DNA from: a virus
DNA length: 38,940 nucleotides
Reading direction: 5' to 3' (one strand)
IMG/VR virus record: IMGVR_UViG_3300032731_001386
Span: 1 to 38,940 of that record
The position numbers were made by a program, and so were the translations under genes. Below, piece after piece: positions 270 through 24,902 of this stretch; positions within the stretch are counted from its first letter, which is position 1, and every line of letters begins with the position of its first letter. Under the pieces are notes generated by a model. The model worked only from the letters and a program-made list of their open reading frames with translations. It was not told the origin of the DNA and did no database searches.

Positions 270-312
270 GGGTCAGGTTGATTGTGCGGACACCTCCGGC
301 CCGCGTCTCTCT

Positions 313-378
313 ATCATAGCAAGGCCTGGCTGGGCCGTTAAGTGGGGGGGGGGCCGGGCCGCAGGCCCGTAACGGACC
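313..378 (-). promoter_or_regulatory. Hairpin plus promoter unit 2 of 4
   Basis: GGGCCGTTA (332-340) pairs with TAACGGACC (370-378), with one mismatch, around an inner GGGCC/GGCCC hairpin. On the minus strand TTAACG (336-341) and TATGAT (313-318) are 17 nt apart, a good sigma70-type promoter for the gene at 111-269. The hairpin lies just after the stop of the gene at 408-602. Confidence 0.65.
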
Positions 379-407
379 AGGCGGGGGCCGAAGCCCCCCC
401 CAGCGGG

Positions 408-602
408 TCACTGGTACGTACGTACCATCGCCAGTACGTCTGTATTGCCAAGCTGCTCGGCGTAGGCTTTGGGTCTGGCGTACTCCGGGAATAGGCGGGA
501 GACCAGCTCCAGCCGCCGGATCGCGGCCGACTCGGTCAGGCCGGCGCCGAACTGGCGGTGGCCGCCGTCGAAACCGCGCCACTGGGCGATCAGGTAGGTC
601 AT
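408..602 (-). CDS. Small cassette protein 2, 64 aa, unknown function
   Basis: The frame starts at ATG 602 (MTYLIAQWRGFDGGHRQF...) and encodes 64 residues, mixed charged and aliphatic, with no recognisable domain. It sits in the second hairpin-promoter cassette, with the same CAACCCGACCC leader before ATGAC as its neighbours and a TATAAT box about 28 nt upstream. Its sequence is not obviously related to the other cassette proteins, so the units share control elements rather than coding sequence. No function can be inferred. Confidence 0.6.
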   Translation of the reverse strand: MTYLIAQWRGFDGGHRQFGAGLTESAAIRRLELVSRLFPEYARPKAYAEQLGNTDVLAMVRTYQ

Positions 603-629
603 GGGTCGGGTTGTGTGTGGTACCTATAA

Positions 630-695
630 ATTATAGCGCAAGGCCTGGCTGGGCCGTTAACTGGGAGGGGGGTCCACCACCTTACCTAACGGCCC
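630..695 (-). promoter_or_regulatory. Hairpin plus promoter unit 3 of 4
   Basis: GGGCCGTTA (651-659) pairs perfectly with TAACGGCCC (687-695). A perfect TATAAT lies at 630-635 on the minus strand. The TTAACG -35-like element (655-660) is 19 nt away, 2 nt longer than in the other three units. It would drive the gene at 408-602. Confidence 0.65.
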
Positions 696-727
696 AAAGG
701 CCCCCGTGGGGGGCCCGGCCGTCCGGA

Positions 728-886
728 TCAGATCGCGTCTATGGCCATGCGCTGGGCAGTGAACTCGGTGGACACGAGGTCATGGAATCGGGGCATATCC
801 CAATGCGACCAGTGACCATGGAGGCCTTCGGCCATGCGGCGCTCCCTGGCGCAGCGCAGGATGTGGGCCCATTGTGTTTTTGTCAT
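728..886 (-). CDS. Small cassette protein 3, 52 aa, unknown function
   Basis: ATG at 886 opens 52 codons (MTKTQWAHILRCARERRMAE...) ending in TGA at 728-730. Trp, His and Arg are frequent, giving a basic helical protein with no known motif. The leader CAACCCGATCCG and the post-stop TGATCCGGACGGCC match those of the other cassettes, which supports a real transcription unit. Nothing points to a specific function; many such small, separately transcribed phage genes are early host-takeover or defence-related genes, but that is only analogy. Confidence 0.55.
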   Translation of the reverse strand: MTKTQWAHILRCARERRMAEGLHGHWSHWDMPRFHDLVSTEFTAQRMAIDAI

Positions 887-917
887 CGGATCGGGTTGTG
901 TGGTTGTCTACTCTTAT

Positions 918-1013
918 AGTATAGCGGATGGCGGCTGGGCCGTTAGGTGGGGGGGTCCCGGGCGGCTGGGCCGTTAGGTGGGGGGGTCCCGGGCCGCAGG
1001 CCCGTAACGGCCC
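918..1013 (-). promoter_or_regulatory. Hairpin plus promoter unit 4 of 4, with tandem 31-bp duplication
   Basis: The GGGCCGTTA arm occurs twice (937-945 and 968-976), in two exact 31-bp tandem units starting at 932 and 963. A single TAACGGCCC arm (1005-1013) can pair with either copy. On the minus strand CTAACG (941-946) and TATACT (918-923) are 17 nt apart and would drive the gene at 728-886. Confidence 0.65.
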
Positions 1014-1026
1014 AAAGGTCCGACCC

Positions 1027-1043
1027 ACCACCCCTGGGGTGGT
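1027..1043. terminator. Perfect palindrome, possible terminator
   Basis: ACCACCCC, one T, then GGGGTGGT forms an 8-bp self-complementary arm pair between the last cassette and the ribbon-helix-helix gene. It could end transcription from either side. There is no clear U-tract. Confidence 0.35.
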
Positions 1044-1131
1044 CTTATTATCAGGACCCACCCCCTGTATATGGGACCCGCCTGACCCCGCTGATCCGCC
1101 AGCCAAAAACCCCAACTACTGCAGTAATCCG

Positions 1132-1140
1132 GTTGAAAGC
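1132..1140 (+). promoter_or_regulatory. GTTGAAAGC motif upstream of RHH gene
   Basis: Exact GTTGAAAGC, ending 22 nt before the ATG at 1163. It is one of about a dozen sense-oriented copies in the window. Confidence 0.5.
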
Positions 1141-1162
1141 CACATATACCGACCCACCTGCC

Positions 1163-1324
1163 ATGGCACGCTCAAAATCAAAGAACAAAACCCTCGCGGT
1201 AGGTGATACGGCCCACGCCGGCATCGCCGCGCTACAGGAACGCCTCGGGCTCAAAAATCACGACGAGACGATACGATATCTGTTGGACTATTACTGCAGT
1301 AGTGAACTCACCCGAGCCACCTGA
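1163..1324 (+). CDS. Ribbon-helix-helix DNA-binding protein, 53 aa
   Basis: Starting at ATG 1163 the product is 53 residues. A basic N-terminus (ARSKSKNK) is followed by a short beta segment (TLAVGD) and two helices (AGIAALQERLGL, then HDETIRYLLDYY), the usual ribbon-helix-helix order. Such proteins bind operators as dimers and often act as repressors or antitoxins. The frame stays open far upstream through repeat sequence, but the ATG at 1163 fits both the domain and the GTTGAAAGC motif 22 nt before it. The last 34 nt overlap the convergent small gene at 1291-1429. No toxin partner is evident. It may regulate nearby phage promoters. Confidence 0.65.
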   Translation: MARSKSKNKTLAVGDTAHAGIAALQERLGLKNHDETIRYLLDYYCSSELTRAT

Positions 1325-1429
1325 GCCGGAACCGAGACCAGGAAATCTTGAGCCCGATGATATATATCATACACCCCCGTATCGTCATTGAAGGGGTACA
1401 CCAGCTCCTCAGGCCCCGTAGTCCTTCAT
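1291..1429 (-). pseudogene. Small frame-disrupted gene after an ATGA overlap
   Basis: An ATG at 1427-1429 overlaps the upstream stop (ATGA), the coupling used by most genes here, but its frame stops after six codons. Skipping one base in the C-run at 1414-1417 (GGGG on the coding strand) gives a coherent 45-residue product (MKDYG then PEELVYPFNDDTGVYDIYH...) that ends at TAA 1291-1293. I infer a single-base indel, either a sequencing error in a homopolymer or a true mutation. A GTG start further in is an alternative. Function is unknown. Confidence 0.4.
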
Positions 1430-1625
1430 CGGAAAGTCCCCAACATGCCCAGCCACAGCACGACATCGTCTGGGTCGGCTTCACGGGGGAAAGTCGCCAG
1501 CACCGTTCGAGGGTTGCCCCGATCCGGTCCGCCGCCTCATTCACAGACCAGACTGTGTTCGAGCGGTAACAGATCTCAACGATCCGGGCCATGTCGGGGT
1601 CGAGAGGGGGGTGGGGCAACATCAT
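1426..1625 (-). pseudogene. Small gene with an apparent 1-base frameshift
   Basis: ATG 1625 overlaps the stop of the previous gene (ATGA). The first ~41 residues read well (MARIVEICYRSN, then VNEAADRIGATLER), after which the frame turns into Cys/Trp-rich, unlikely sequence. The -1 frame at about 1502-1505 continues sensibly (VLATFPREADPDDVVLWLG, then MLGTFR) and ends in TGA at 1426-1428, forming an ATGA overlap with the next gene. One extra G would restore a ~65-residue protein. This and the break just downstream suggest homopolymer indels or decay. Function is unknown. Confidence 0.45.
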
Positions 1626-1846
1626 GGTGAGAAGGTGTCCAGCAGGTCGATCGCCGACCGGAGTTCAGACACCCACGGCCCCGGTTCACCTGCCTCGAAC
1701 CTGTCACAAGAATACACAACACCGTGGGCCCGGTGGACGAAAAAGAACCTGCAGGACAGTGCGTCGTAATCCCACTCGAGACCCAACTCCATTGCAACTT
1801 TCCCGGCTAGCGGGAGTCGGCTATTCAGACACATGTATCCGGTCAT
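1622..1846 (-). CDS. Hypothetical protein, 74 aa, coupled to thyX
   Basis: Its ATG (1844-1846) overlaps the thyX stop as ATGA, and its own stop overlaps the next ATG in the same way, so it is translated as part of the thyX operon. The 74 residues (MTGYMCLNSRLPLAGKVAME...) look globular, with an aromatic/Cys-containing middle (CRFFFVHRAHGVVYSC), and show no domain that I recognise. Its position right after thyX may suggest nucleotide metabolism, but that is only association. Confidence 0.6.
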   Translation of the reverse strand: MTGYMCLNSRLPLAGKVAMELGLEWDYDALSCRFFFVHRAHGVVYSCDRFEAGEPGPWVSELRSAIDLLDTFSP

Positions 1847-2574
1847 GGTGCCAATCTTGCCCGGTGGAGGCGGTTCGTCTCATACCAACCCGCGATCTCC
1901 GGCACCCACCCAGTGACATGGGGCCACACCATGTCGCACAGGGCCTGGATTTCCGGCTGCGCGTCACGCTTACTGCGAAGGTCAAGAAAGTGGAGTGCGG
2001 AGCGAAGGCTAAAGCTCACTACGAAGTGTTGGCGAAGATCGAAGGGGAGGATGCCGCGAGCGTGTTCCTCGGCATACCCCGCCAAGATGAGTTCTTCGTA
2101 GCGAAGAGCTGCCTGGCTGCAAAGGAGCAAATCCTTTCCCCTTTGGTGTTCGGTGTACAGATATTTCTTTCCTTTTCGGTCGCTATAACTCCCTGCCGGT
2201 CTCAGATAGAACACCTCTTCTGGGGATATTTCACCACGGGCGGCTTTGCATACTCTTTCGCCGGTATACCGACCACTCTGTACATCGAATGAAATCCCGA
2301 CCCGGTGGGTGCGGGCCTGCTGCATTACCGAGTGGGGGAACCAGCCCGCGTTAAGCACGATCGATACGTGTTCGGTGGGGCCGTAGTGACCCCGCTCGCC
2401 GGCCAGCAGCCGCTTGACACACAGTTCCCCCGCTCGTGTTTCATCGGGCCACGAACTCCGCTCGTCGACAACAAACCCCTCGCTGTAGTCCTGGTGCATG
2501 GCGGCATAGATGACTTGTTGCGGGGTGGGGGTGGCGGCAATCAGCTCGACGCGGAAGTAAGGGTCGGGGATCAT
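1843..2574 (-). CDS. thyX: Flavin-dependent thymidylate synthase ThyX
   Basis: ThyX makes dTMP from dUMP using methylene-tetrahydrofolate, FAD and NADPH. The signature region QQARTHRVGISFDVQSGRY (about residues 84-102) carries the ThyX motif in its RTHR form, with the spaced Ser; my recollection is that cyanobacterial ThyX proteins also read RTHR. Downstream, LRYEELILAG...ILP and QHFVVSFSLRSALHFLDLR match the family's C-terminal helices. I start at ATG 2574 (MIPDPYF), giving 243 aa, about the normal size; the longer frame to 2631 would run through a perfect hairpin. It heads a coupled chain of small genes and would help a phage keep up dTMP supply. Confidence 0.93.
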   Translation of the reverse strand: MIPDPYFRVELIAATPTPQQVIYAAMHQDYSEGFVVDERSSWPDETRAGELCVKRLLAGERGHYGPTEHVSIVLNAGWFPHSVMQQARTHRVGISFDVQSGRYTGERVCKAARGEISPEEVFYLRPAGSYSDRKGKKYLYTEHQRGKDLLLCSQAALRYEELILAGYAEEHARGILPFDLRQHFVVSFSLRSALHFLDLRSKRDAQPEIQALCDMVWPHVTGWVPEIAGWYETNRLHRARLAP

Positions 2575-2593
2575 GGTGGGGGTTACAATGGTG

Positions 2594-2616
2594 AAAGATG
2601 CAAAAAGTGCATCTTT
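2594..2616. promoter_or_regulatory. 9-bp perfect hairpin in the thyX leader
   Basis: AAAGATGCA (2594-2602) pairs with TGCATCTTT (2608-2616) around AAAAG. It lies 20-42 nt upstream of the chosen thyX start and may act as an operator, RNA control element or terminator for the upstream gene. Confidence 0.5.
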
Positions 2617-2638
2617 GGCCGTGAGGGACAACGGGAAA

Positions 2639-2659
2639 GGTATACAAAAAACGTATACC
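2639..2659 (-). terminator. 7-bp hairpin after the gene at 2677-3102
   Basis: GGTATAC (2639-2645) pairs with GTATACC (2653-2659). On the minus strand the loop is GTTTTTT. It follows the stop at 2677 and precedes thyX, so it may end or process the upstream transcript. Confidence 0.45.
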
Positions 2660-2676
2660 TCACCCCCCGGGTCGAT

Positions 2677-3102
2677 TTAAGTTTCTCCAGCACTCCCGAA
2701 CGTCAACTCGACCATCGCTCCGGTCCAGGACTTTAGAGTAGCCGGCCGCAGCCCGCACACCACCCCCGTATCGGTACACACCGCCCCGGACTCGTCGACA
2801 AACACCCCATGCAGGCACAGACCGTCACCCGCCAACTCCACCGACCCGATGTACGTTTGGAAGTCCGGATCGATGTGTACCTGGTCTCCGGTATACGGAT
2901 CGTGGATGGAGTGTAGCGTGGTGTTCTCGGCCACATACAGTGCGCCGGACGGTTTGTCGGCCACGACCACCCGATCCAGGGGGATCTTGCGTTCCCGCAA
3001 CAACCTAAGGATGTCGGCTTGCCGACCGGTCCGGACCACGACTACGTCCAGGCTGGGGCGGGGTTTATCCTCCTCAGCATTAAACACTATGACGCGGCCC
3101 AT
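2677..3102 (-). CDS. Hypothetical protein, 141 aa
   Basis: ATG 3102 starts MGRVIVFNAEEDKPRP..., overlapping the end of the upstream gene by 16 nt. The N-terminal half has alternating hydrophobic strands and helices (SLDVVVVRTGRQADILRLL, then RVVVADKPSGALYVAEN) like a small alpha/beta fold. The C-terminal half is beta-rich (LCLHGVFVDESGAVCTDTGV). No catalytic motif is clear. It is the last gene before the hairpin at 2639-2659. A longer frame reaches 3327 but only by overlapping the neighbour heavily. Confidence 0.6.
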   Translation of the reverse strand: MGRVIVFNAEEDKPRPSLDVVVVRTGRQADILRLLRERKIPLDRVVVADKPSGALYVAENTTLHSIHDPYTGDQVHIDPDFQTYIGSVELAGDGLCLHGVFVDESGAVCTDTGVVCGLRPATLKSWTGAMVELTFGSAGET

Positions 3103-3419
3103 ATCGACTCCATTAGTAGTTGTGGTCGGGTGACCGGCTCGAGACGGACCGGCTCGGTACCATAGTACCAGATGCGGTCGGTGAGGTAGGGGATATATAG
3201 GGCCTCCCCCGACATATGGATCCGGTACACGTGCCAGTTGTTCCCTACCCACAACGTACCGTCTCGGCATGTATACATGGTTATGCGGTTTACCGAACGG
3301 ATCTGGTGGTAGTAGAGGCTTGGGCATACAACCCTATGCGGACGCGTCCACCACCGCAGGGGGAGATGGATGTGGCCGCAGGGGGAGGGGCGGATGTTGG
3401 TGGCCGTCAGGAGACTCAT
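3087..3419 (-). CDS. Hypothetical protein, 110 aa, tandem paralog family member
   Basis: The protein has the pattern GHIHLPLRWW ... MYTCRDGTLWVGNNWHVYRIHM, which matches GHLHL ... FCTPEGVYYVDGNRNVWKT in the product of 4325-4633. It therefore belongs to a small family of diverged, adjacent paralogs. Predicted content is mostly beta with many aromatics. There is no signal peptide or known domain. The start at ATG 3419 follows a gap holding a 32-bp repeat also present before the gene at 3841-4260. Confidence 0.55.
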   Translation of the reverse strand: MSLLTATNIRPSPCGHIHLPLRWWTRPHRVVCPSLYYHQIRSVNRITMYTCRDGTLWVGNNWHVYRIHMSGEALYIPYLTDRIWYYGTEPVRLEPVTRPQLLMESIWAAS

Positions 3420-3431
3420 GGCGCAGGTGTG

Positions 3432-3463
3432 TTTAGGTGAAAGCTAGATGGGTGTGCCGATAA
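3432..3463 (-). repeat. 32-bp intergenic direct repeat, copy 1
   Basis: The 32 bp beginning TTTAGGTGAAAGCTAGATGG are identical to 4261-4292. On the gene strand the repeat sits just before the start at 3419 and contains GGTGAAAGC (3436-3444) in the opposite orientation to the genes. It may be an operator or a duplicated leader. Confidence 0.7.
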
Positions 3464-3492
3464 TCGGAATAGGGGATACCAATAAGCTAGCT

Positions 3493-3834
3493 CTACAAAA
3501 ATATCGCCTCAAGACGTAGTTCTTCGTGACTTACCCGTTCGGCCCGGAGAGTGGATCGAGACACAGAGTCGTGCCACAACCTCGTATCGCTATTGAGGTA
3601 AAACCCCGTAGGGCTCCAGCCCTGACGAGGGACTATCCGCCAAATCGACTTACCGTCGTTCCATAAATGACCGTGGGAGATTACGTACAGCCCGCTGTAC
3701 CGTATTGTCGTATCGAGTATGGTGGATCTGGGGTTACGAGCTCTGGGGTCAAGATACCAGGAGTGTGGCAGGTACAGGTAGGATTCGTTACCTATCCACC
3801 GTGTGTTGTTCGTGCAGTATACGGGGGTGTTCAT
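3493..3834 (-). CDS. Hypothetical protein, 113 aa, tandem paralog family member
   Basis: From ATG 3834 the product is 113 residues, with NESYLYLPHSWYLDPRA followed by GHLWNDGKSIWRI, which fits the family pattern (a histidine/aromatic strand, then a D/N-G turn and a W-R/K strand). It follows the stop of the gene at 3841 by 6 nt and is probably co-transcribed with it. Aromatic-rich and beta-rich, no membrane segment. Function is unknown. Confidence 0.55.
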   Translation of the reverse strand: MNTPVYCTNNTRWIGNESYLYLPHSWYLDPRARNPRSTILDTTIRYSGLYVISHGHLWNDGKSIWRIVPRQGWSPTGFYLNSDTRLWHDSVSRSTLRAERVSHEELRLEAIFL

Positions 3835-3840
3835 GGAGTG

Positions 3841-4260
3841 TTAAAGCACAGATCGAGCTCGAGTTCGGTCCCGGAGATGCGTTTCCAGCGGAGTGGCCGG
3901 GACTCCCCCCCCTACACCGATGTGGAGACGGGTTCGACCTGATGCGTCCGGCTCGTAGGTGAGGAAGAACCGGCGGGTGTGAGGCAGACATCCCAGGACC
4001 ACCCTGGACTCACAGCCGGACGTAAGGCCGGTCCAGACCCGATCCCCCCGTTTCCGGTAGATGGCCGGGATACCCCACCGATTAGTCTCCTGGTCCCCGT
4101 AACACGTGTTTGGTAGGTTTTCCGGCAGACTTATCGCCCTATGGATCTGTCCGGCTCGTATCAGGTACAGGGACCGTAGGTATTTTCCCTTATCCGGGGG
4201 AGCGTAAAAGCCGGTGTAGGGGAGAGGGGGCGACGTGCAGAACCAATAGACGCGAGACAT
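3841..4260 (-). CDS. Hypothetical protein, 139 aa, possible paralog family member
   Basis: ATG 4260 begins MSRVYWFCTSPPLPYTGFYA. The protein is Arg- and Pro-rich, with GIPAIYRKRGDRVWTGL resembling the turn-and-Trp segment of the neighbouring paralogs, but the relation is weaker than for the other four. It starts a two-gene unit with 3493-3834. Its leader is the second copy of the 32-bp repeat, ending right at the start codon. Function is unknown. Confidence 0.5.
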   Translation of the reverse strand: MSRVYWFCTSPPLPYTGFYAPPDKGKYLRSLYLIRAGQIHRAISLPENLPNTCYGDQETNRWGIPAIYRKRGDRVWTGLTSGCESRVVLGCLPHTRRFFLTYEPDASGRTRLHIGVGGGVPATPLETHLRDRTRARSVL

Positions 4261-4324: not shown

Positions 4325-4633
4325 CTACCCGAACAACCGCTCCAGCTTGTGGAGTTTGCGAAAATTAACGATCCGGCTCTTTTCCATGCATACCGGGCTG
4401 AATACAACATCGCCGATGTTGGCTATGTCTGTTTTCCAGACATTACGGTTACCGTCCACGTAGTAAACACCCTCGGGGGTGCAGAAGAAGGTCATGCGAC
4501 TTCTAAACTCCATACGGAGGACATATTCGGATACGCTGTTACTTTCATATAGCGTAGGACGGAGTGAGTATCTCCCCAAATGGAGGTGACCATGGCGCTT
4601 GGTCACTGATGCCGGCTTGGTGGTAGTGGTCAT
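4325..4633 (-). CDS. Hypothetical protein, 102 aa, tandem paralog
   Basis: It overlaps the upstream stop as ATGA (ATG 4631-4633). It is clearly paralogous to the product of 4630-4950: both share KPASV/QPASV near the N-terminus, GH(L/I), a (V/Y)YYV(D/N)G turn, and an end reading FRKLHKLE(R/W)LFG. The segment FFCTPEGVYYVDGNRNVWKT looks like a beta hairpin. No domain is recognised. Tandem duplication followed by divergence is visible. Confidence 0.65.
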   Translation of the reverse strand: MTTTTKPASVTKRHGHLHLGRYSLRPTLYESNSVSEYVLRMEFRSRMTFFCTPEGVYYVDGNRNVWKTDIANIGDVVFSPVCMEKSRIVNFRKLHKLERLFG

Positions 4634-4950
4634 CCGAACAACCACTCCAGCTTGTGGAGCTTGCGGAATAGTACGGGGGTGTTGTCAGCAAACCTGCCGA
4701 CCGGATCGAAATACACCCCATCACTACCAAACGGGATATCAGTCTCGTATACCTCCCTCCTCCCATTGACGTAGTAAACGACTGGTGGTACGTAGAAAAA
4801 ATCCCTCGCTACGCAGTTCTTGACTACTGCGCGATGTACCGAAGACGATACGTGGCCCAGATACATCCGCCCGGTGTCTGGGACGACACTGTTCCACCCC
4901 ACCCGTATGTGCCCGGGCTTCCTATCCACCGATGCGGGTTGCCAGGTCAT
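4630..4950 (-). CDS. Hypothetical protein, 106 aa, tandem paralog
   Basis: ATG 4948-4950 overlaps the AAA+ stop (ATGA), so the start MTWQPASVDRKPGHIRVG is well supported. It ends FRKLHKLEWLFG, almost the same as the next gene. The middle (FFYVPPVVYYVNGRREVYET) aligns with the paralog at 4325-4633. Coupling to the ATPase suggests it may be a partner or a substrate of that ATPase, but this is inference from order only. Confidence 0.65.
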   Translation of the reverse strand: MTWQPASVDRKPGHIRVGWNSVVPDTGRMYLGHVSSSVHRAVVKNCVARDFFYVPPVVYYVNGRREVYETDIPFGSDGVYFDPVGRFADNTPVLFRKLHKLEWLFG

Positions 4951-5918
4951 ACGAACCCCACAGTGGGTTTGGTCACCCCCCCACCCTCCCCGAGCAGTTC
5001 GGCCAGTGATACGGGCGCGGTGCCGGCGTAGTCGGAGCGTATGGCGCGGGCCCGGTCCGGCTCGAGGCGCCCAAACTTCATAACATCGAAACACCGGCCC
5101 GGCCGCAACAACGCATCGTCGATGTCCCGCACCGAGGGCAGGTTGGTGCTGAAGATGATTTTCTTACCGGTCGTGCTCATCAGGCCGTCGCCTAGGTTGA
5201 GAAACCGGTGCATGATGGTGTTGCCGCTCTTTGAACGGGAGGACAGGAAGCTATCGGCATCCTCCAGGACCATGAATGTCTCCTCGCCGGACATGAAATC
5301 GGCGAAGATCTCGTCGGACTCGAGGATGGATGTGTCGTAGGAGACAATGGCTCCGCCACCCGTGTGGTGCAGGAGTCCGCGGATGAAGGAAGTTTTGCCG
5401 GTACCGGGCGGACCGATCAGCACCAGGACGTTCGATCCGGATGCCATGAACCGGTCGTAGTAGTCGGTGAGTGGTTCGCCCGCTAGGGCGGGGTAGAACT
5501 CCGTCCGGGGGAGATTGTCGGTCCGGATTGGTAGTTTGATGCTGTCGCAGTTCGCCTTGTACACCCACTTGACACGGACCGGGACCGGATCGAATCGCGA
5601 CGTGATGGTGCGGGTGGCTTCATCGACGGCGTCTTGCCTCCCCATGATGTCGATTTCCGCAACCCGGTCCGTGTACTCGGCCATCACCAGCACCGATTGG
5701 TCCGGGCTCTCGATGGCCAGTTTGCGACCGGATCGGTAGCTGGGGAGGCCGAATAGGGGTATGAGGTCGGCGATATCCTTACACATCACCGCGATAGTGG
5801 TTTCGGTGAGGGTCTCTGAGCTTTCTACATACCGGAGCTGGAAGCGTCGCTCGAGATATTCGGAGAGGCCGTATACGGATTCGGATAGTAGGAGGGTGCG
5901 AGGCGTGTTGTCCGTCAT
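4947..5918 (-). CDS. AAA+ ATPase, BCS1/Cdc48-like core
   Basis: The start MTDNTPRTLLL at ATG 5918 gives 323 aa. A ~150-residue N-terminal domain of unknown fold precedes one AAA+ module: Walker A GPPGTGKT (169-176), Walker B FMVLEDAD (215-222), sensor-1 STN (257-259), and LLRPGR with the arginine finger (270-275). Walker B ends E-D rather than D-E, as in some BCS1-type ATPases. Such proteins remodel or unfold partners as rings. A truncated VWA-like gene lies upstream in the same direction, recalling ATPase/VWA pairs, and a coupled family of small paralogs follows. Confidence 0.85.
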   Translation of the reverse strand: MTDNTPRTLLLSESVYGLSEYLERRFQLRYVESSETLTETTIAVMCKDIADLIPLFGLPSYRSGRKLAIESPDQSVLVMAEYTDRVAEIDIMGRQDAVDEATRTITSRFDPVPVRVKWVYKANCDSIKLPIRTDNLPRTEFYPALAGEPLTDYYDRFMASGSNVLVLIGPPGTGKTSFIRGLLHHTGGGAIVSYDTSILESDEIFADFMSGEETFMVLEDADSFLSSRSKSGNTIMHRFLNLGDGLMSTTGKKIIFSTNLPSVRDIDDALLRPGRCFDVMKFGRLEPDRARAIRSDYAGTAPVSLAELLGEGGGVTKPTVGFV

Positions 5919-6259: not shown

Positions 6260-6619
6260 TCAGCCCTCGATCCGGGCCACATCGCCATATGGGAAGTCGG
6301 GGGATGGGGTGCCGCCCGGGCTGACCACCCACAACAGCGGGTTGGCGGTATCGTAGTCGAGGGCGAGGTTGGCGTAGCCGTCGGTGAGGATGATGGGGAG
6401 GATCGATGAAGGGGAGGACTCAGGGTTGGCGTCCCGATAGTCGGCGATATGGGCGATGATGGGGTCGAAGGAGGTGCCGCCGCCGCCGGTTAGGTGGAAG
6501 GAGGTGGTGATGGAGGAGATGTCGCAGATGGGGTGGATGGTGGTGTCTTGACCGGTGAAAGCTATACAGGTAATATAAAAAGTTGATAGTTTAAAGCTAA
6601 ACTTAAAACCTACAGTGCG
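6260..6619 (-). pseudogene. 5'-truncated VWA-like (DUF2201-type) gene remnant
   Basis: A minus-strand frame with no start codon is open from 6619 to TGA 6260-6262. From about 6590 it reads TFYITCIAFTGQDTTIHP, then GGGGTSFDPIIAHIADY, PIILTDGYANL, LLWVVSPGG and FPYGDVARIEG. That order (beta strand, GGGGTSF, P..I.TDGY, LWVV, PxGDVxRI) is the C-terminal half of the VWA-like domain found with DUF2201 putative metallopeptidases. The N-terminal half and any start are absent, and the break lies in AT-rich sequence unlike its surroundings. It is probably a decayed partner of the AAA+ gene downstream. Confidence 0.6.
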
Positions 6620-6827: not shown

Positions 6828-7064
6828 ATGATGGGACGAGCTCGAGATGGTACCGTGGCGAGTTTAGACCGGATCCAGGCGGCTTGTGCTCAGTACGGAT
6901 TGCGGGTGGAACAGTGTCGTCCCAGACACCGCTGGGCGGTGTATCGTCCGATGACTGAGAAGACCATTGCCGTTATAGATATTTGTGATATAGCCGATGG
7001 GGAGGTGGACGAAATCGTCACGCAGTGGGTGTTAGCTGAGTCATTCGGAACTACTTTGTCATGA
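6828..7064 (+). CDS. Tandem small-protein family, member A (78 aa)
   Basis: First of eight related genes. ATG 6828 has a good ribosome site (CGGAGGGG, 4 nt spacing after GGAGG plus GGTGCT). The core reads ACAQYGLRVEQ, then HRWAVYRP, a strand IAVIDICDIADG, and an acidic end EVDEIVTQWVL. The family pattern is C-x2-Y-G-L, a short turn, a W/Y strand, then a C-terminal helix with E and V/L. It is coupled to member B by an ATGA overlap. No known domain; the size suggests small binding proteins. Confidence 0.65.
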   Translation: MMGRARDGTVASLDRIQAACAQYGLRVEQCRPRHRWAVYRPMTEKTIAVIDICDIADGEVDEIVTQWVLAESFGTTLS

Positions 7065-7315
7065 ACTATCACAACCTCCGTGAGATGTGTGATCGGTACG
7101 GGTTGCAGGTAAGTCATAACATCGCCGGCAAATGGGAAGAGGGTGATAGAGAAGTGGGGCTGGAGTACCTGCTATCTGTGCGGGAAGACTTTGGACCCGG
7201 ATGCTGGCCGATACGGGTGTTGGGACGGATCGGGGTGGGTGAGTTAAAGCTGATGGAGCAAGACCAACTCGAAGAGCTTGTAGTGGGGTGTAGTTTGGCA
7301 TCCTTCTCTCCGTGA
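7061..7315 (+). CDS. Tandem small-protein family, member B (84 aa)
   Basis: ATG 7061 overlaps the stop of member A. The protein has LREMCDRYGLQVSHNIAGKW, then a middle strand pair, and the C-terminal helix QDQLEELVVGCSLASF, matching the family pattern. It is joined to member C by a GTGA overlap. Function is unknown. Confidence 0.65.
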   Translation: MNYHNLREMCDRYGLQVSHNIAGKWEEGDREVGLEYLLSVREDFGPGCWPIRVLGRIGVGELKLMEQDQLEELVVGCSLASFSP

Positions 7316-7530
7316 CCTGGCGTATCGACCAGAAAGAGGATAGGATAAGGGAGCTATGCGACCAGTACGTACTGGATTTTGAATATGCGTGGGGCAAATA
7401 CTACATAGGGGCGAGATCGGACTGGGACAGTCCGTCAGTGATCATATTCAGTAGGCGGGATTTGTCAGAATGGGATGAGGACAGGATTGAGGAGATCGTA
7501 CTGGAGTATGTGTTGTTAGCGGGATTTTGA
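7312..7530 (+). CDS. Tandem small-protein family, member C (72 aa)
   Basis: GTG 7312 overlaps the stop of member B (GTGA), which decides the unusual start. Core: IRELCDQYVLDFEYAWGKYY, a strand SVIIFSRRDL, then EDRIEEIVLEYVLLAGF. The Gly of Y-G-L is replaced by Val. It is coupled to member D by TTGA. Confidence 0.6.
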   Translation: MTWRIDQKEDRIRELCDQYVLDFEYAWGKYYIGARSDWDSPSVIIFSRRDLSEWDEDRIEEIVLEYVLLAGF

Positions 7531-7796
7531 CACGGTGTGGTAAGATGGGGGCTAGTGACATGGAACGCGAACCGATGGGGCTGCGGAACAGGAAGAAGTT
7601 TGCGGGGCTTTGTAGGCGGTACGGGTTAAGGTGTAGAGAAGACCGGGATCGCCGTGAGACCCTCGTTTTTAGGGCGGGTGAGCAGTACCCGGACAGGGTG
7701 GGTATCGTAACCTTCTACGAGCTTAGGGATCCGGATTGGGAGAAGTTAGAGAACTTGGTGGTGGGTATATCTCTCGATACATGGGAGATATGTTAA
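7527..7796 (+). CDS. Tandem small-protein family, member D (up to 89 aa)
   Basis: A TTG at 7527 overlaps the stop of member C (TTGA). In-frame ATGs at 7545 and 7560 are alternatives, but the same TTGA arrangement at 8310 favours the TTG. Core: FAGLCRRYGLRCREDRDR, VGIVTFYELRD, WEKLENLVVGISLDTW. Its stop overlaps the start of member E by 7 nt. Confidence 0.6.
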   Translation: MTRCGKMGASDMEREPMGLRNRKKFAGLCRRYGLRCREDRDRRETLVFRAGEQYPDRVGIVTFYELRDPDWEKLENLVVGISLDTWEIC

Positions 7797-8077
7797 CGAA
7801 ACCTATGTATCGAGAAAATCTGTCGTGGACCGCAACCTCCGGGGTTTTGGATTCTATCTGTAGCGACCTTGACGTCGAATGGCTCTATGACTCTCGGCGG
7901 TGTTTAGTCATATTTCGAGAGTCTAAACCGAAGCATCGAACCGCTCACGATCTCGAAGTGTGTTTTGGGGACCCCGATTCCCTCGAGTTTAGGGTTTGGG
8001 AATCTGTTGTTATGCGAATGCCGGAGGTAGACATCCAGAGGATGTTAGAGTCGTGGTTGAGGGGGAGGTCGAGATGA
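7790..8077 (+). CDS. Tandem small-protein family, member E (95 aa)
   Basis: ATG 7790 lies inside the end of member D. This is the most diverged copy: LDSICSDLDVEWLYDSRRC replaces the C-x2-Y-G-L core, and MPEVDIQRMLESWLRG is the C-terminal helix. ATGA coupling to member F. Confidence 0.55.
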   Translation: MLTKPMYRENLSWTATSGVLDSICSDLDVEWLYDSRRCLVIFRESKPKHRTAHDLEVCFGDPDSLEFRVWESVVMRMPEVDIQRMLESWLRGRSR

Positions 8078-8313
8078 ACACGCTGAGGCAGATAATCGAC
8101 CGGAGGGGACGCGAACTCGACCCGAACTCTCGCGCCGACCAGATCCTCGGGCTGTGTTTTCGGTACAATCTGTTTGCGGTAAAGGATAAGGAGGGGGGTA
8201 GGGTTCTTGTCGGGACGTTGACCCGGTACCTGGGGATTGTCGGAGTGAATGAGGATTGGGAACACATCGAAAACAAGATCGTGTCGATGTCGATGGAGGA
8301 GATGTGGGATTGA
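8074..8313 (+). CDS. Tandem small-protein family, member F (79 aa)
   Basis: ATG 8074 overlaps the stop of member E. Core: QILGLCFRYNLFAVKDKEGG, RVLVGTLTRYLGIVGV, then EHIENKIVSMSMEEMW. Y-N-L replaces Y-G-L. The stop overlaps a TTG start for member G. Confidence 0.6.
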   Translation: MNTLRQIIDRRGRELDPNSRADQILGLCFRYNLFAVKDKEGGRVLVGTLTRYLGIVGVNEDWEHIENKIVSMSMEEMWD

Positions 8314-8561
8314 CACCACCGGCCGATAATGACATAGGGAGCTACGACCGGCTTCGGGAGTTGTGCAAAGAGTATGGGTTGGTCGCGATCCGGAACGACA
8401 ACGTAGGGAGGTGGGAGCTGGCGTTGCCGGCCCCCGGTTCGGAGTGGGAATACGTCCGGGTCGCGCAGGTGTCCGACATGGACATGTACTATACGCCGTG
8501 GCGCATGGTCGAAAAGCGTATCGTGGTGTCTATCCTGGATAGGAGTTTTCAAGACAGTTAG
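8310..8561 (+). CDS. Tandem small-protein family, member G (83 aa)
   Basis: TTG 8310 overlaps the stop of member F (TTGA); an in-frame ATG exists only far upstream inside member F, and internal ATGs would cut into the family core. Core: LRELCKEYGLVAIRNDNVG, RWELALPAPG, VRVAQVSDMD, then RMVEKRIVVSILDRSF. It is separated from member H by 2 nt. Confidence 0.6.
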   Translation: MTPPADNDIGSYDRLRELCKEYGLVAIRNDNVGRWELALPAPGSEWEYVRVAQVSDMDMYYTPWRMVEKRIVVSILDRSFQDS

Positions 8562-8563
8562 TT

Positions 8564-8848
8564 ATGACCGACCCTTATGGTGTTAAAGGTGCTAGGAAGA
8601 TTTTCGCGGAGCGGTACGAACAGTATCTATTCCGTACAGGGCAAAGGTTCGAGCTCAATTCCGATGACCCGGTGGCCCGGGAGTGCGCGAGGTATGGGCT
8701 AGAAGTGGTGTTTAGGAGAGGGAAGTATCTGATCGGTAAGGGGGACGATCTGTACGGAAGTATTAGTCCGTGGTTTCAGGAGGAAGGAATTAATCTGGTC
8801 GAGGTCGTAGCCGGTCTATTTGTCACCGGACCTTTTGATGACGCTTGA
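8564..8848 (+). CDS. Tandem small-protein family, member H (94 aa)
   Basis: ATG 8564 follows the stop of member G by 2 nt. An N-terminal extension (TDPYGVKGARKIFAERYEQY) precedes the core VARECARYGLEVVFRRGKYL and the hydrophobic end INLVEVVAGLFV. It closes the array. The last 33 nt overlap a possible convergent minus-strand gene. Confidence 0.65.
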   Translation: MTDPYGVKGARKIFAERYEQYLFRTGQRFELNSDDPVARECARYGLEVVFRRGKYLIGKGDDLYGSISPWFQEEGINLVEVVAGLFVTGPFDDA

Positions 8849-8995
8849 CAACCAGAGGGGGATCAGGTCGCGCAAAGCCCGGACCAGGAGTCGGAGTAGG
8901 CTTTTGGCTACAGGCTTTAATACGGTTTCGGCTACCACTACTCCAGCAGATGAAGCTACGGCTATGTGGACGTCGGCCGTATCAGGTGTAATCAT
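8816..8995 (-). CDS. Possible small convergent protein, 59 aa
   Basis: ATG 8995 to TAG 8816-8818 encodes MITPDTADVHIAVASSAGVV, then a hydrophobic/basic helix (VAKSLLRLLVRALRDLIPLW). The composition looks protein-like and could be membrane-associated. There is no ribosome site, and a plus-strand frame in the same interval is an alternative. This is a low-confidence call. Confidence 0.3.
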   Translation of the reverse strand: MITPDTADVHIAVASSAGVVVAETVLKPVAKSLLRLLVRALRDLIPLWLSSVIKRSGDK

Positions 8996-9203: not shown

Positions 9204-9407
9204 TTAAGGTAGCAAGTCGGGAGGATAAGGCCAATCGGATAGGCGGTAGATCAGCTCGTATCCGGGCAGGAGGGGGCGGTGACGGGCAGGCGCGGTAGAT
9301 CGCCCCAGCAGCCCCGTGTACACATCGTTCCGGGTGGTATAAACCACGACCTCGTCCGCGTCGTAGTCGTAGGAGATGGCGGTTTCTCCGGAGTCGTGTG
9401 GGTCCAT
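9204..9407 (-). CDS. Hypothetical protein, 67 aa
   Basis: ATG 9407 begins MDPHDSGETAISYDYDADEV. An acidic N-terminal half and a Pro/Tyr-rich C-terminal half follow (RPLLPGYELIYRLSDWPY). It is preceded by GGTGAAAGC in the sense orientation, 21 nt from the start, which supports a real gene. No domain recognised. Confidence 0.5.
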   Translation of the reverse strand: MDPHDSGETAISYDYDADEVVVYTTRNDVYTGLLGRSTAPARHRPLLPGYELIYRLSDWPYPPDLLP

Positions 9408-9437: not shown

Positions 9438-10147
9438 GCCCCCGTGCCCATATCACGCTGGTGGGAGAAGCCCCGCCCCCATATCACACTGGATTGTGTC
9501 GAAACAGGCCCGCAGCCAAACCCAAAAGAAAAAGTCCTTTCAGCCCCCTATACGCCTACTATTAAGTTTTAATAAATAAAAGGATATATATATAGATGGG
9601 GCTGAGGGGACGGGGACTCAGGCGAAAGTTGATTTTCGGAAAAATTTCAGCCCAGTCATAGCAAGCGATCTGGAGGAAGCATTTTACCCAGACACCCGAT
9701 ATGGGGGTGATCGCACCCTCTTCCGCGAGGGGGCAACAATACCTATCAAAATACCCCAAAGAAAACTGACCCCCTTTAAGAGACTAAAAACGACCAAAAG
9801 GGAACTAAAAGGCCTTTAAATGATAAGCATGACGTTTTCACAAACGTTTGAAATGTTTCAGTCAAAGATGCCCCTAAAAACACCCTGTTTTAGAGACTAA
9901 AAAGGACTTTTTTGATATTCATTTTCTTATTTTGATAACCATGGGTGTTTTGATTTGAGGTTATTTTCTGAATTTCCCCAAATCCGTTGCAGCGCAATAG
10001 GTTTGACCTTATCAAAATAACCGTGACTTCTGGGCCACTTCGGGTACTTTTACTCTCTAAACCCATATACAACTCAAGTTACAAAATTTGTTGATAGCTT
10101 GATAGTGGCCCCCTGTGCTACAATTGTCTAGTATTCACCCCTCCGCC
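9438..10147. other. AT-rich intergenic region, possible replication origin
   Basis: About 700 bp without a convincing gene. CCCATATCAC(G/A)CTGG occurs twice (near 9447 and 9479). From about 9540 the sequence becomes strongly AT-rich compared with its flanks. ATCAAAATA occurs near 9746 and 10012 and in reverse near 9930; AGAGACTAAAAA occurs near 9780 and 9892. Clustered AT-rich short repeats before the replication genes recall an origin with iterons, but no canonical DnaA box was found. TACAAT near 10121 may be the -10 of the next gene. Confidence 0.4.
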
Positions 10148-11233
10148 ATGAGCCTTACCCGCCAAGCTAAGACGATCCTGGGCGAAGCAAACCCCAGCAT
10201 CACCTGGCTTCGATCTCAACCCAAAGAATCCGTTATCCAGGCTGTCCTCGAGATGAAGAGGATTTATTCAACCGACTCCATGCACCAACGACAGATGGCC
10301 CATGACCTGGCGATGGCCGAGATAGATATCCGTAAGCTGGAGCTCCAGTCCAAGCTGGAGGCCACCAACAACATGATCCGGTACGGGGTCGAAATCAAAG
10401 AAAACCCGTATGGACCCAAGGCAATCGGTGAAGTCGCATCGGTCTGGAATGGGGAGGACACTCGGCACTCGGTGCTTGCCAAATCCCTGCCTGATTCCGA
10501 CCTCTCTGAGCGGGCAAACCTGGCCGAGGAGCAGGGGATTGTCTGGAACTTGCAGAACAAACGGCCGGAGCGTGAGTCGACTATCCGGAAGAAGGTAGAG
10601 GGGTGGGAGAAAGGTCTGGATCGAGGGTTGAATGCCGACCTCGCCGTCTACGCCATCAAAAGTGCGGAGGCGATTAAGTCCTCAGGGCCGGATTACCGGG
10701 CCTTTATGACCGGCCTATGTATGCAGATGGAGCAGGGGTTGGGCAAAGACCCTCAGCATAGGTATCTAGTGCCCCGGTTTAAGAATATAGCCAAACAGTA
10801 CAATGCCACTGTCCAGCCGACACCAATAGTCCCCCTCGAGCGGGCCGAGAAGGTCATTGATCAGATCTACACTGAGTGGTTGTGCCCCGACTACCGAGCC
10901 GTGATCAAGAAGAACGATGAGACTAGCAAGGTACCAGGTACCGACCACCTCAAACGGATGATAGCCAAGCACATCGAGATGCTGGGGGATATGGGTGAAG
11001 ATGAAACGGTAAAAGATCGACCTTTTGCCGTCAAGATCCTGTGGGACCTAACTCAACCGTACACCTTCCCCATCATTAAGGATAATCTGGCCTGGGACGT
11101 TGCGTGTCAGAGGGCCATAGAGTACCTAGACTACTCCAATATCCATCAAACCCACAGCCGATCACCAAAACTCATGGACGATATGTACTATGAGTGGTGG
11201 TTGGGAATGTGCGAGAGGGTGGGTTTGGTGTGA
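10148..11233 (+). CDS. Hypothetical protein, 361 aa
   Basis: The ATG at 10148 (MSLTRQAKTILGEANPS) is preferred to an upstream GTG at 10115 because TACAAT, a likely -10, lies in between. The product is largely helical. A charged segment (LAMAEIDIRKLELQSKLEAT) looks like a coiled coil around residues 55-80. No catalytic motif is visible. It is the first gene after the AT-rich gap and converges on the gene at 11240 with only 6 nt between stops. A structural or replication-accessory role is possible but unsupported. Confidence 0.7.
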   Translation: MSLTRQAKTILGEANPSITWLRSQPKESVIQAVLEMKRIYSTDSMHQRQMAHDLAMAEIDIRKLELQSKLEATNNMIRYGVEIKENPYGPKAIGEVASVWNGEDTRHSVLAKSLPDSDLSERANLAEEQGIVWNLQNKRPERESTIRKKVEGWEKGLDRGLNADLAVYAIKSAEAIKSSGPDYRAFMTGLCMQMEQGLGKDPQHRYLVPRFKNIAKQYNATVQPTPIVPLERAEKVIDQIYTEWLCPDYRAVIKKNDETSKVPGTDHLKRMIAKHIEMLGDMGEDETVKDRPFAVKILWDLTQPYTFPIIKDNLAWDVACQRAIEYLDYSNIHQTHSRSPKLMDDMYYEWWLGMCERVGLV

Positions 11234-17643: not shown

Positions 17644-18467
17644 ATAGTGTTCTGTACTGTCCGGGTCGTACCACAGTTAACCACGAACAGTTTTTATTAG
17701 AGTACGGAGGGTTATCAAATTACCGATTCCTCGTACTTGATACGTCTACCGCCGGATTGGCGTATGCGAGTGGCTCCAGCGAGTTGATTTTGTGCGCGAA
17801 TGAGAGATATCACCTCGAAATGCACAAATTTCTGACAATTTCCCCTGCGCACCGGTACATCAGAGATGTGTGGGAGAACAAATACGATGGCGGGATGAAC
17901 TGGAGAGAAAGGGGCAGATTTATCGCCGTACTTAACAACCGTACCCGCCCCAAAGTTATGCGCACTTGGGATGATATGGCCCGATATTACTGCATACTGG
18001 CTATGAGCGGGTTCCAGACTAACTTCCATAAGTGGAGATTGATCTCAGAGCATACCCCGGTCACTCCTAACTACACAGCTATCCGGGAGTGGGCACAAAC
18101 ACACAAGCACAAGACGGTACGATACTACCGACGTAACGTATATAATTTTCCGACCCCCGAACTTGACCCGGAAACAGTAATATACATCCATTTGCCCGAT
18201 AACTTTGCCCCGTACGGGTGCGGGTACTCTTGGACCAAAAGAAAACTAAATCGCGTAGCCCAAGACCTGATCTACTTCGCCGAACTCGGTCAACCAATTA
18301 TCCTAAGCATTACTCACGGCCGGTGGGGTAAGAGGGACACGGGCATTGAAAAACTATTCCCTGAGAATCTTTTCCGTTCCCACTATTACACAGAGTTGAA
18401 AGCTCAAAAGCCGGGGTTTAACTCCAAACCGATAACGGAGGCGTATTTAGTTGCAAATCTCGGGTAA
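17640..18467 (+). CDS. D12-class (Dam-like) adenine methylase-like protein, catalytic motif degenerate
   Basis: The 275-aa product follows the general order of D12 N6-adenine methylases: an N-terminal glycine-containing strand (EYGGLSNYRFLVLD), then RPKVMRTWDDMARYYCILAM and GFQTNFHKW, then a strand VIYIHLPDNFAPYGCGY, then helices and GQPIILSITHG. In active enzymes the strand ends in DPPY; here it reads HLPD, so methyl transfer would probably be lost. It may have a binding role, or the assignment may be wrong. It is coupled to the preceding gene by ATGA. Confidence 0.4.
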   Translation: MNSVLYCPGRTTVNHEQFLLEYGGLSNYRFLVLDTSTAGLAYASGSSELILCANERYHLEMHKFLTISPAHRYIRDVWENKYDGGMNWRERGRFIAVLNNRTRPKVMRTWDDMARYYCILAMSGFQTNFHKWRLISEHTPVTPNYTAIREWAQTHKHKTVRYYRRNVYNFPTPELDPETVIYIHLPDNFAPYGCGYSWTKRKLNRVAQDLIYFAELGQPIILSITHGRWGKRDTGIEKLFPENLFRSHYYTELKAQKPGFNSKPITEAYLVANLG

Positions 18468-18480
18468 TGACGTCCGGGGG

Positions 18481-18822
18481 ATGGGAAACCACACCCTGTT
18501 GAATGTGTGCGGGTGCGGAGAGATCGATAGGTTGAGGTCGCTGGCTCTGTTCAGGGCTTGGGCGGGCCCCATGTTAGCCTTGTGCGGCGCCGAGGTGGTC
18601 GATGTGCTGGGGTACCAGTTCCAACCGTTTGGCGAAGCCGGCTTCACGTACCTAGCCCTCCTCACCACCTCCCATTTCTCGATTCACACGTGGCCCGAGT
18701 ACCGATCCGCCGCCGTTGATGTGTTCACGTGTGGTACTCGGGTCGATACGGATAGGATTGTGGCCGAGCTGGGTGGGTTTTTTGCTCCGGCATCGCAAAC
18801 TGTCCAGACCGTGTTAAGGTAG
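18481..18822 (+). CDS. speD: S-adenosylmethionine decarboxylase proenzyme SpeD
   Basis: SpeD self-cleaves to form a pyruvoyl group and decarboxylates AdoMet for spermidine synthesis. The segment LLTTSHFSIHTWPEYRSAAV, then DVFTCG, contains the cleavage Ser64, His69 and Cys84 when translation starts at ATG 18481, almost the textbook numbering (63/68/83). This favours that start over TTG 18451. The usual Glu before the Ser is Thr here, which is unusual and could affect processing. SpeD is, as I recall, a common cyanophage auxiliary gene. Confidence 0.92.
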   Translation: MGNHTLLNVCGCGEIDRLRSLALFRAWAGPMLALCGAEVVDVLGYQFQPFGEAGFTYLALLTTSHFSIHTWPEYRSAAVDVFTCGTRVDTDRIVAELGGFFAPASQTVQTVLR

Positions 18823-24539: not shown

Positions 24540-24902
24540 ATGCTCAAATCACTTTCAGTCGCTATCGCCACCCTGGGCGTACTAGGTACCTCTCTCCCCG
24601 CAAACGCAGCCTCCTGCGGGTCTGCTTCGTTCTACGGTGTTGGAGACCCCTATCACGGCCGTCGTACTGCCAGCGGCGAGATTTTTGATGCCTACGGGCT
24701 AACTACGGCAAGTAAAACACTTCCGTTCGGAACCCGCATACGCGTCACCAATCAATCCAACGGTAAAAGCGTTGTGGTCCGAGTCAATGACGACGGTCCG
24801 CACGTCTACGGTCGTATCCTTGACCTGTCCTACGGTGCGTTCTCCCGGATCTCATCTCCGAGTCAAGGAGTAATCCCACGGGTGTGTTTTACGCGTCTGT
24901 AA
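24540..24902 (+). CDS. Secreted RlpA-like double-psi beta-barrel protein, 120 aa
   Basis: A signal peptide (MLKSLSVAIATLGVLGTSLP, then ANA) precedes a full RlpA core: CGSASFYGVGDPYHGRRTAS (~27-46), LPFGTRIRVTNQSNGKSVVV (~62-81), RVNDDGPHVYGRILDLSYGA with the conserved Asp. Bacterial RlpA is a lytic transglycosylase that acts on septal peptidoglycan. A phage copy with a signal peptide could open or remodel the wall for lysis or entry. It lacks the SPOR domain. It is flanked by terminators on both sides, so it is a single-gene unit. Confidence 0.85.
   Translation: MLKSLSVAIATLGVLGTSLPANAASCGSASFYGVGDPYHGRRTASGEIFDAYGLTTASKTLPFGTRIRVTNQSNGKSVVVRVNDDGPHVYGRILDLSYGAFSRISSPSQGVIPRVCFTRL

Follow-up and report, generated by a model that had tools for sequence, protein, structure and literature searches.

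An array of eight small genes in an S-TIM5-like cyanophage genome, a candidate repertoire of host-directed binding proteins

Arrays of small, diverged viral paralogs are a known kind of gene arrangement. The Sulfolobus rudivirus SIRV2 encodes 12 AcrID1 homologs (PMC11065993), and phage T4 amplifies the counter-defence gene tifA (PMC9391042). The array described here resembles the AcrID1 clusters in that many small diverged paralogs of one family are adjacent in one viral genome; those clusters sit near the rudivirus genome ends, and many of their copies are without an assigned function (PMC11065993). The likeness drawn here is one of description, and unlike our array the AcrID1 clusters have one proven anti-CRISPR member and belong to viruses of archaea. 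In T4-like phages, tifA and further counter-defence genes undergo segmental amplification (PMC9391042); the array has tandem copy gain at an accessory locus in common with this, but the T4-like copies are recent and laboratory-selected, whereas those of the array are mostly ancient and strongly diverged. A further comparison is with T7 gp1.2, an inhibitor of the host dGTPase of 84 aa, which is similar in size and weakly resembles in topology both structural models described below, although no sequence similarity to the family was found and the Z scores lie within the background for unrelated proteins. In T7, gp1.2 is a single gene. Few small phage genes have an assigned function, and prioritising them is hard. 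A family that multiplies at one locus, with one predicted scaffold and with turnover, makes a compact and testable set of candidate host-interaction genes in cyanophages, and offers a means of asking if the hosts met by a phage lineage are recorded in its gene arrays.

The window, i.e., the whole stretch of DNA that was analysed, is a 38,940-base virus record and represents a fragment of an S-TIM5-like (Aurunvirus-related) cyanophage. Its DNA polymerase (family A) shares 56.6% identity with the counterpart in cyanophage S-TIM5 across 99% of the length, and its sheath, capsid and topoisomerase genes are consistent with a myovirus of the S-TIM5 lineage. The S-TIM5-like features found in the window were the polymerase, the capsid, the sheath, the homolog of a 372-aa protein and the shared gene order. 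As the relatives of the window are cyanophages, its hosts are probably cyanobacteria. S-TIM5 (Aurunvirus) itself has in common with the window the DNA polymerase, the tail sheath, the topoisomerase and a diverged homolog of the 372-aa protein, but S-TIM5 and S-TIM54 were without the small-gene family at the sensitivity used.

Re-deriving the ORF coordinates placed eight small plus-strand genes, g1 to g8, end to end at positions 6828-8848 (Table 1), and the chain of NTGA overlaps with one 7-nt overlap proposed in the original prediction proved exact. The junctions from g1 to g8 measure -4, -4, -4, -7, -4, -4 and +2 nt, corresponding to five NTGA overlaps, one overlap of 7 nt and one 2-nt spacer. 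The prediction had also held that coupling fixes the starts, and this was borne out only in part, because the overlap types are not kept in the closest large relative, G002 (IMGVR_UViG_3300035670_000044; polymerase 83% identical to that of the window). The last four genes of the window match the last four of the G002 array in order, and the matching junctions are -4, -4 and +2 nt in the window vs -11, -1 and -8 nt in G002, so that tight packing is kept and the exact overlap is not. The stop/start overlaps are ordinary tight phage packing, the form of which is not conserved. A Shine-Dalgarno-like stretch, which has a background of 19% of positions, precedes the starts of g1, g6 and g7 only. Because such a stretch is missing before the starts of g2-g5 and g8, it is reasonable to suppose that these genes are translated by reinitiation after the upstream stop. 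Shine-Dalgarno-like sites are often absent from cyanobacterial genes. A promoter scan reported one promoter-like site upstream of g1, with a score not above those of shuffled sequences. Beyond g8, the converging 59-aa ORF is likely a real neighbour gene that bounds the array, and the 67-aa ORF that follows had no Pfam match.

Table 1. Genes of the array and its downstream neighbours in the window (G002, G007: uncultured relatives, see text).
Feature	Position	Strand	Length (aa)	Start or junction	Counterpart or remark
g1	6828..7064	+	78	ATG; Shine-Dalgarno-like GGAGG before start	best match G002_6
g2	7061..7315	+	84	ATGA overlap	best match G002_3
g3	7312..7530	+	72	GTG in GTGA overlap	ortholog G002_7, sister G007_10
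g4	7527..7796	+	89	TTG in TTGA overlap	best match G007_2
g5	7790..8077	+	95	ATG; 7-nt overlap	divergent, tentative sister subfamily; ortholog G002_13
g6	8074..8313	+	79	ATGA overlap	positional counterpart G002_14
g7	8310..8561	+	83	TTG in TTGA overlap	ortholog G002_15
g8	8564..8848	+	94	2-nt spacer after g7	ortholog G002_16
small conserved ORF	8816..8995	-	59		converges on g8; similar ORF at L066 4170-4358, minus strand
small conserved ORF	9204..9407	-	67		between array and 372-aa gene; similar ORF at L066 4355-4567, minus strand
conserved gene, function unassigned	10115..11233	+	372		downstream of array; locus marker in S-TIM5-like phages

All eight genes had been proposed to be paralogs, and for seven of them the kinship is beyond chance. 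Many pairwise shuffle Z scores among g1, g2, g3, g4, g6, g7 and g8 were between 4 and 10, and an external profile, built of 30 genes from the arrays of two other phages with no window sequences in it, recovered the same seven among the 307 window ORFs searched, at E values of 4e-11 to 8e-4. For g5 the case is weaker. It had no pairwise shuffle signal with the other array genes and was missed by the leave-one-out profile, and with the external profile it was the eighth-ranked of the 307 ORFs, at E 0.085, the next chance ORF being at E 0.98. We tentatively assign g5 to a sister subfamily of the core family, since it has relatives of its own (its ortholog in G002 and, more distantly, G007_12 and G007_13) and since a profile comparison of this group with the core family gave P 0.0079 in the region of the first helix and strand, at a low HH-suite probability (5%). 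The sequence features thought to be shared by the members, a C-x2-Y-(G)-L motif, an aromatic strand and an acidic C-terminal helix, are real by the column counts in the core alignment: the motif residues C, Y, G and L are found in 30, 27, 22 and 22 of the 32 core members, respectively, the strand position is W, Y or F in 19/23, and the C-terminal helix carries E in 27/32. The members are small and mostly acidic proteins.

That the family has no known domain is supported by Pfam, PHROG and PDB sequence searches. Scans of Pfam, PHROG and PADLOC yielded scattered, chance-level matches only, and a sequence profile search of PDB gave nothing below E 0.18. When g2 and g7 were compared by tblastn with isolated phages no match was obtained, nor was there a family match in S-TIM5, S-TIM54, S-CBWM1, Mic1 and A-HIS1 at the sensitivity used. 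Scans of viral contigs with alignments of g2, g3 and g7 returned only contigs that were already known, and a scan of genome contigs with the g7 alignment found no relative. The search of phage databases suggested with the original prediction has turned up relatives among uncultured phages and nothing solid among isolated ones. The array is described nowhere in the literature searched, most subscription journals being outside that search, and the family had no entry in the libraries searched.

AlphaFold2 modelling of g7, using an alignment of 30 sequences, gave a helix, three strands, a short helix and a helix, with pLDDT 83, and the model of g5 from a five-sequence alignment showed the same order of elements, with pLDDT 75. 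The two proteins are thus predicted to share an alpha-beta-beta-beta-alpha topology. Unrelated folds had been named beforehand as the outcome that would speak against a family, and the models of these two members agree. The conserved columns would fit a scaffold role: C19, Y22, G23 and L24 lie where the first helix ends, G43 is located between strands, and E68 belongs to the last helix. In the core alignment, length varies mainly between the strands. Among known structures, T7 gp1.2 (7u66_G) aligned to the g7 model with Z 4.7 (rmsd 3.7, 70 aligned), a score shared by several unrelated chains, and to the g5 model with Z 3.6 (rmsd 4.9, 70 aligned), in the background range; HicA3 (4p78_C) aligned to the g7 model with Z 4.3 (rmsd 3.2, 59 aligned), also within background. 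Since Z scores of 7 to 8 are common in such comparisons even for models that have no clear match, the gp1.2 and HicA matches are leads only. Foldseek found no match below E 0.23 in PDB and none below E 0.017 among viral models.

In uncultured relatives, the family is encoded upstream of the gene homologous to the 372-aa gene of the window. G002 has 16 small genes there, at 280-4205, and G007 has 14 at the same place; the core profile matches 11 places in each of these two arrays, not every gene. G014 has a six-gene array at the same locus, in which at least two genes match the family clearly, and G010 and G017 have there a single copy each, which is the ortholog of g7. The family copies in these relatives are thus 16, 14, at least 2, 1 and 1, and many other relatives are fragments in which absence of the family means little. 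The tandem expansion read from the window alone is hereby supported and extended, with up to 16 copies in relatives and with one recent duplication, described below.

Of most interest is the locus itself, which apparently hosts expansions of more than one family. Homologs of the 372-aa gene are found across S-TIM5-like phages, and in S-TIM5 the diverged homolog lies near the start of the record. In G016 (L106 127-4765), 16 small genes are located upstream of the 372-aa homolog, where the window has its array, and they fall into the paralog clusters {1-5}, {6, 7, 9, 10} and {8, 11, 12, 14, 15}. Many of them end in LFS or a similar motif, and none had a significant library match. That they belong to the window family by sequence was ruled out by profile comparison (probability 0.1%). 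It is because G016 has three other paralog clusters there that the locus appears to be an expansion site. G021 and G011 also carry small genes at this locus, with a few related pairs. The locus is at or near the record end in G002, G016, G021 and S-TIM5; a true genome end or a break in the assembly may be the reason. Beside the 372-aa homolog of S-TIM5, the stretch that spans the ends of the record includes many small genes, one of them annotated as anti-restriction; the eight small genes at the genome end of S-TIM5 were considered as another such array and rejected, as they include no paralogous pairs.

To get a view of the history of the array we examined a tree of its genes, with a rough bootstrap and long branches. 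The window rows did not group together and were interleaved with those of G002 and G007, by which recent local duplication was rejected as the origin of the array in this phage. Cross-phage pairs were supported for g3, g7 and g8. By these sequence comparisons the window members are old paralogs, partly conserved one-to-one, and turnover continues. The most conserved member is g7, about 72-74% identical to its G002 ortholog. Compared with their counterparts, in pairs of which several are saturated for synonymous change, pN/pS was 0.25 for g7, 0.34 for g3, 0.52 for g5, 0.53 for g1, 0.55 for g2 and 0.59 for g8, with 0.75 for the poorly aligned g6, 0.10 between the single copies of G010 and G017, and 0.42 for the 372-aa gene, included for comparison. 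The orthologs are under purifying selection, with pN/pS of 0.10 to 0.59 in the clearer pairs. Genes 5 and 7 of G007 (L091:6130-6396:- and L091:5596-5871:-) are a recent tandem duplicate with 67% protein identity and pN/pS 0.97, in which both pN and pS peak in the middle third. The 5′ ends of the two genes are nearly identical, and the middle is strongly diverged, with indels. Diversification of the middle would give this pattern, as would exchange between the copy ends; since pS is also raised in the middle third, recombination could explain it as well as selection.

One scaffold, many copies, turnover at an accessory locus and small, mostly acidic products together make host-directed binding the most likely reading of these data. 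We hold, with about even confidence, that the array is an accessory expansion site of an S-TIM5-like cyanophage, carrying a repertoire of small host-directed binding proteins that would serve host takeover or counter-defence. The array genes would share a transcript and be produced together, their translation being tightly packed and partly coupled, and every copy would be a soluble binding protein with a host target of its own to occupy or inhibit, most plausibly early in host takeover or in counter-defence. The conserved helices would hold the scaffold, the length-variable strand/loop region would set the target, and turnover of the array would track changing hosts. The original suggestion that the proteins bind diverse targets, for example host defence factors, would fit both the turnover and the locus; no result here favours defence factors over other host targets, and none of the members has sequence resemblance to a known anti-defence protein.

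A different explanation of the same turnover is that the array is largely neutral, easy recombination at the locus accumulating duplications of which most copies have little function. The G007 duplicate with pN/pS about 1, the high turnover and the other paralog clusters that fill the same spot in G016 are all in its favour. We nevertheless consider it rather unlikely, as open frames and family motifs were kept over long divergence, pN/pS of orthologs is well below 1 (as for g7 and g3) and the order of the last four genes is conserved. That conservation has another side, for the one-to-one correspondence of several members between phages, together with the common predicted topology and a co-linear packing tight enough to give stoichiometric synthesis, is what would be seen if the copies were subunits of one phage assembly or regulatory complex, a paralog hetero-oligomer acting on phage molecules. 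A copy number of 1 to 16 in relatives ill suits a fixed assembly, and S-TIM5 is without the family at the sensitivity used, making such a complex unlikely. The predicted alpha-beta-beta-beta-alpha topology and the appearance of HicA chains among the top structural comparisons (4p78_C) point in yet another direction, to dsRBD/HicA-type proteins that bind nucleic acid or act as RNases, with host mRNA as their target. However, none of the columns in the 32 core members has a conserved histidine, as would be expected of the HicA catalytic residue, most members are acidic, Pfam gave no HicA match at E up to 5, no HicB-like partner was seen, and the Z score is in the range of common arrangements. 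We find this identity quite unlikely.

A broader version of the host-directed reading, which we offer as a speculation of fairly low probability, is that S-TIM5-like cyanophages have a dedicated locus at which different families of small proteins multiply independently, yielding lineage-specific sets of target-specific binders. If true, such a locus would be the phage equivalent of an array of variable receptors or effectors.

Several other elements of the window were recorded along the way. Just upstream of the array, at 6383-6547 on the minus strand, there is a fragment of ~55 codons that matches the C-terminal portion of a protein of G002 in which a von Willebrand A-like stretch occurs. G002 has an exact 127-nt inverted repeat at its two contig ends (L089 1-127 and the end of L090) that contains this same stretch, and the repeat may be genuinely terminal or may have arisen in assembly. 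A second, adjacent pair of small paralogs is encoded on the minus strand at 4325-4645 and 4630-5094 (shuffle Z 27.5); both members end in RKLHKLE-x-LFG and have no Pfam match. Farther downstream, an ORF beside the capsid gene (29214-29927, minus strand) is similar to HNH endonucleases (Pfam HNH, E 0.0026, below its cut-off) and possibly encodes a homing endonuclease. On the plus strand, the window also encodes an S-adenosylmethionine decarboxylase at 18451-18822 (Pfam AdoMet_dc, E 5.9e-22) and, at 24540-24902, a double-psi beta-barrel protein (RlpA-like; Pfam DPBB_1, E 1.6e-22) with an apparent signal peptide.
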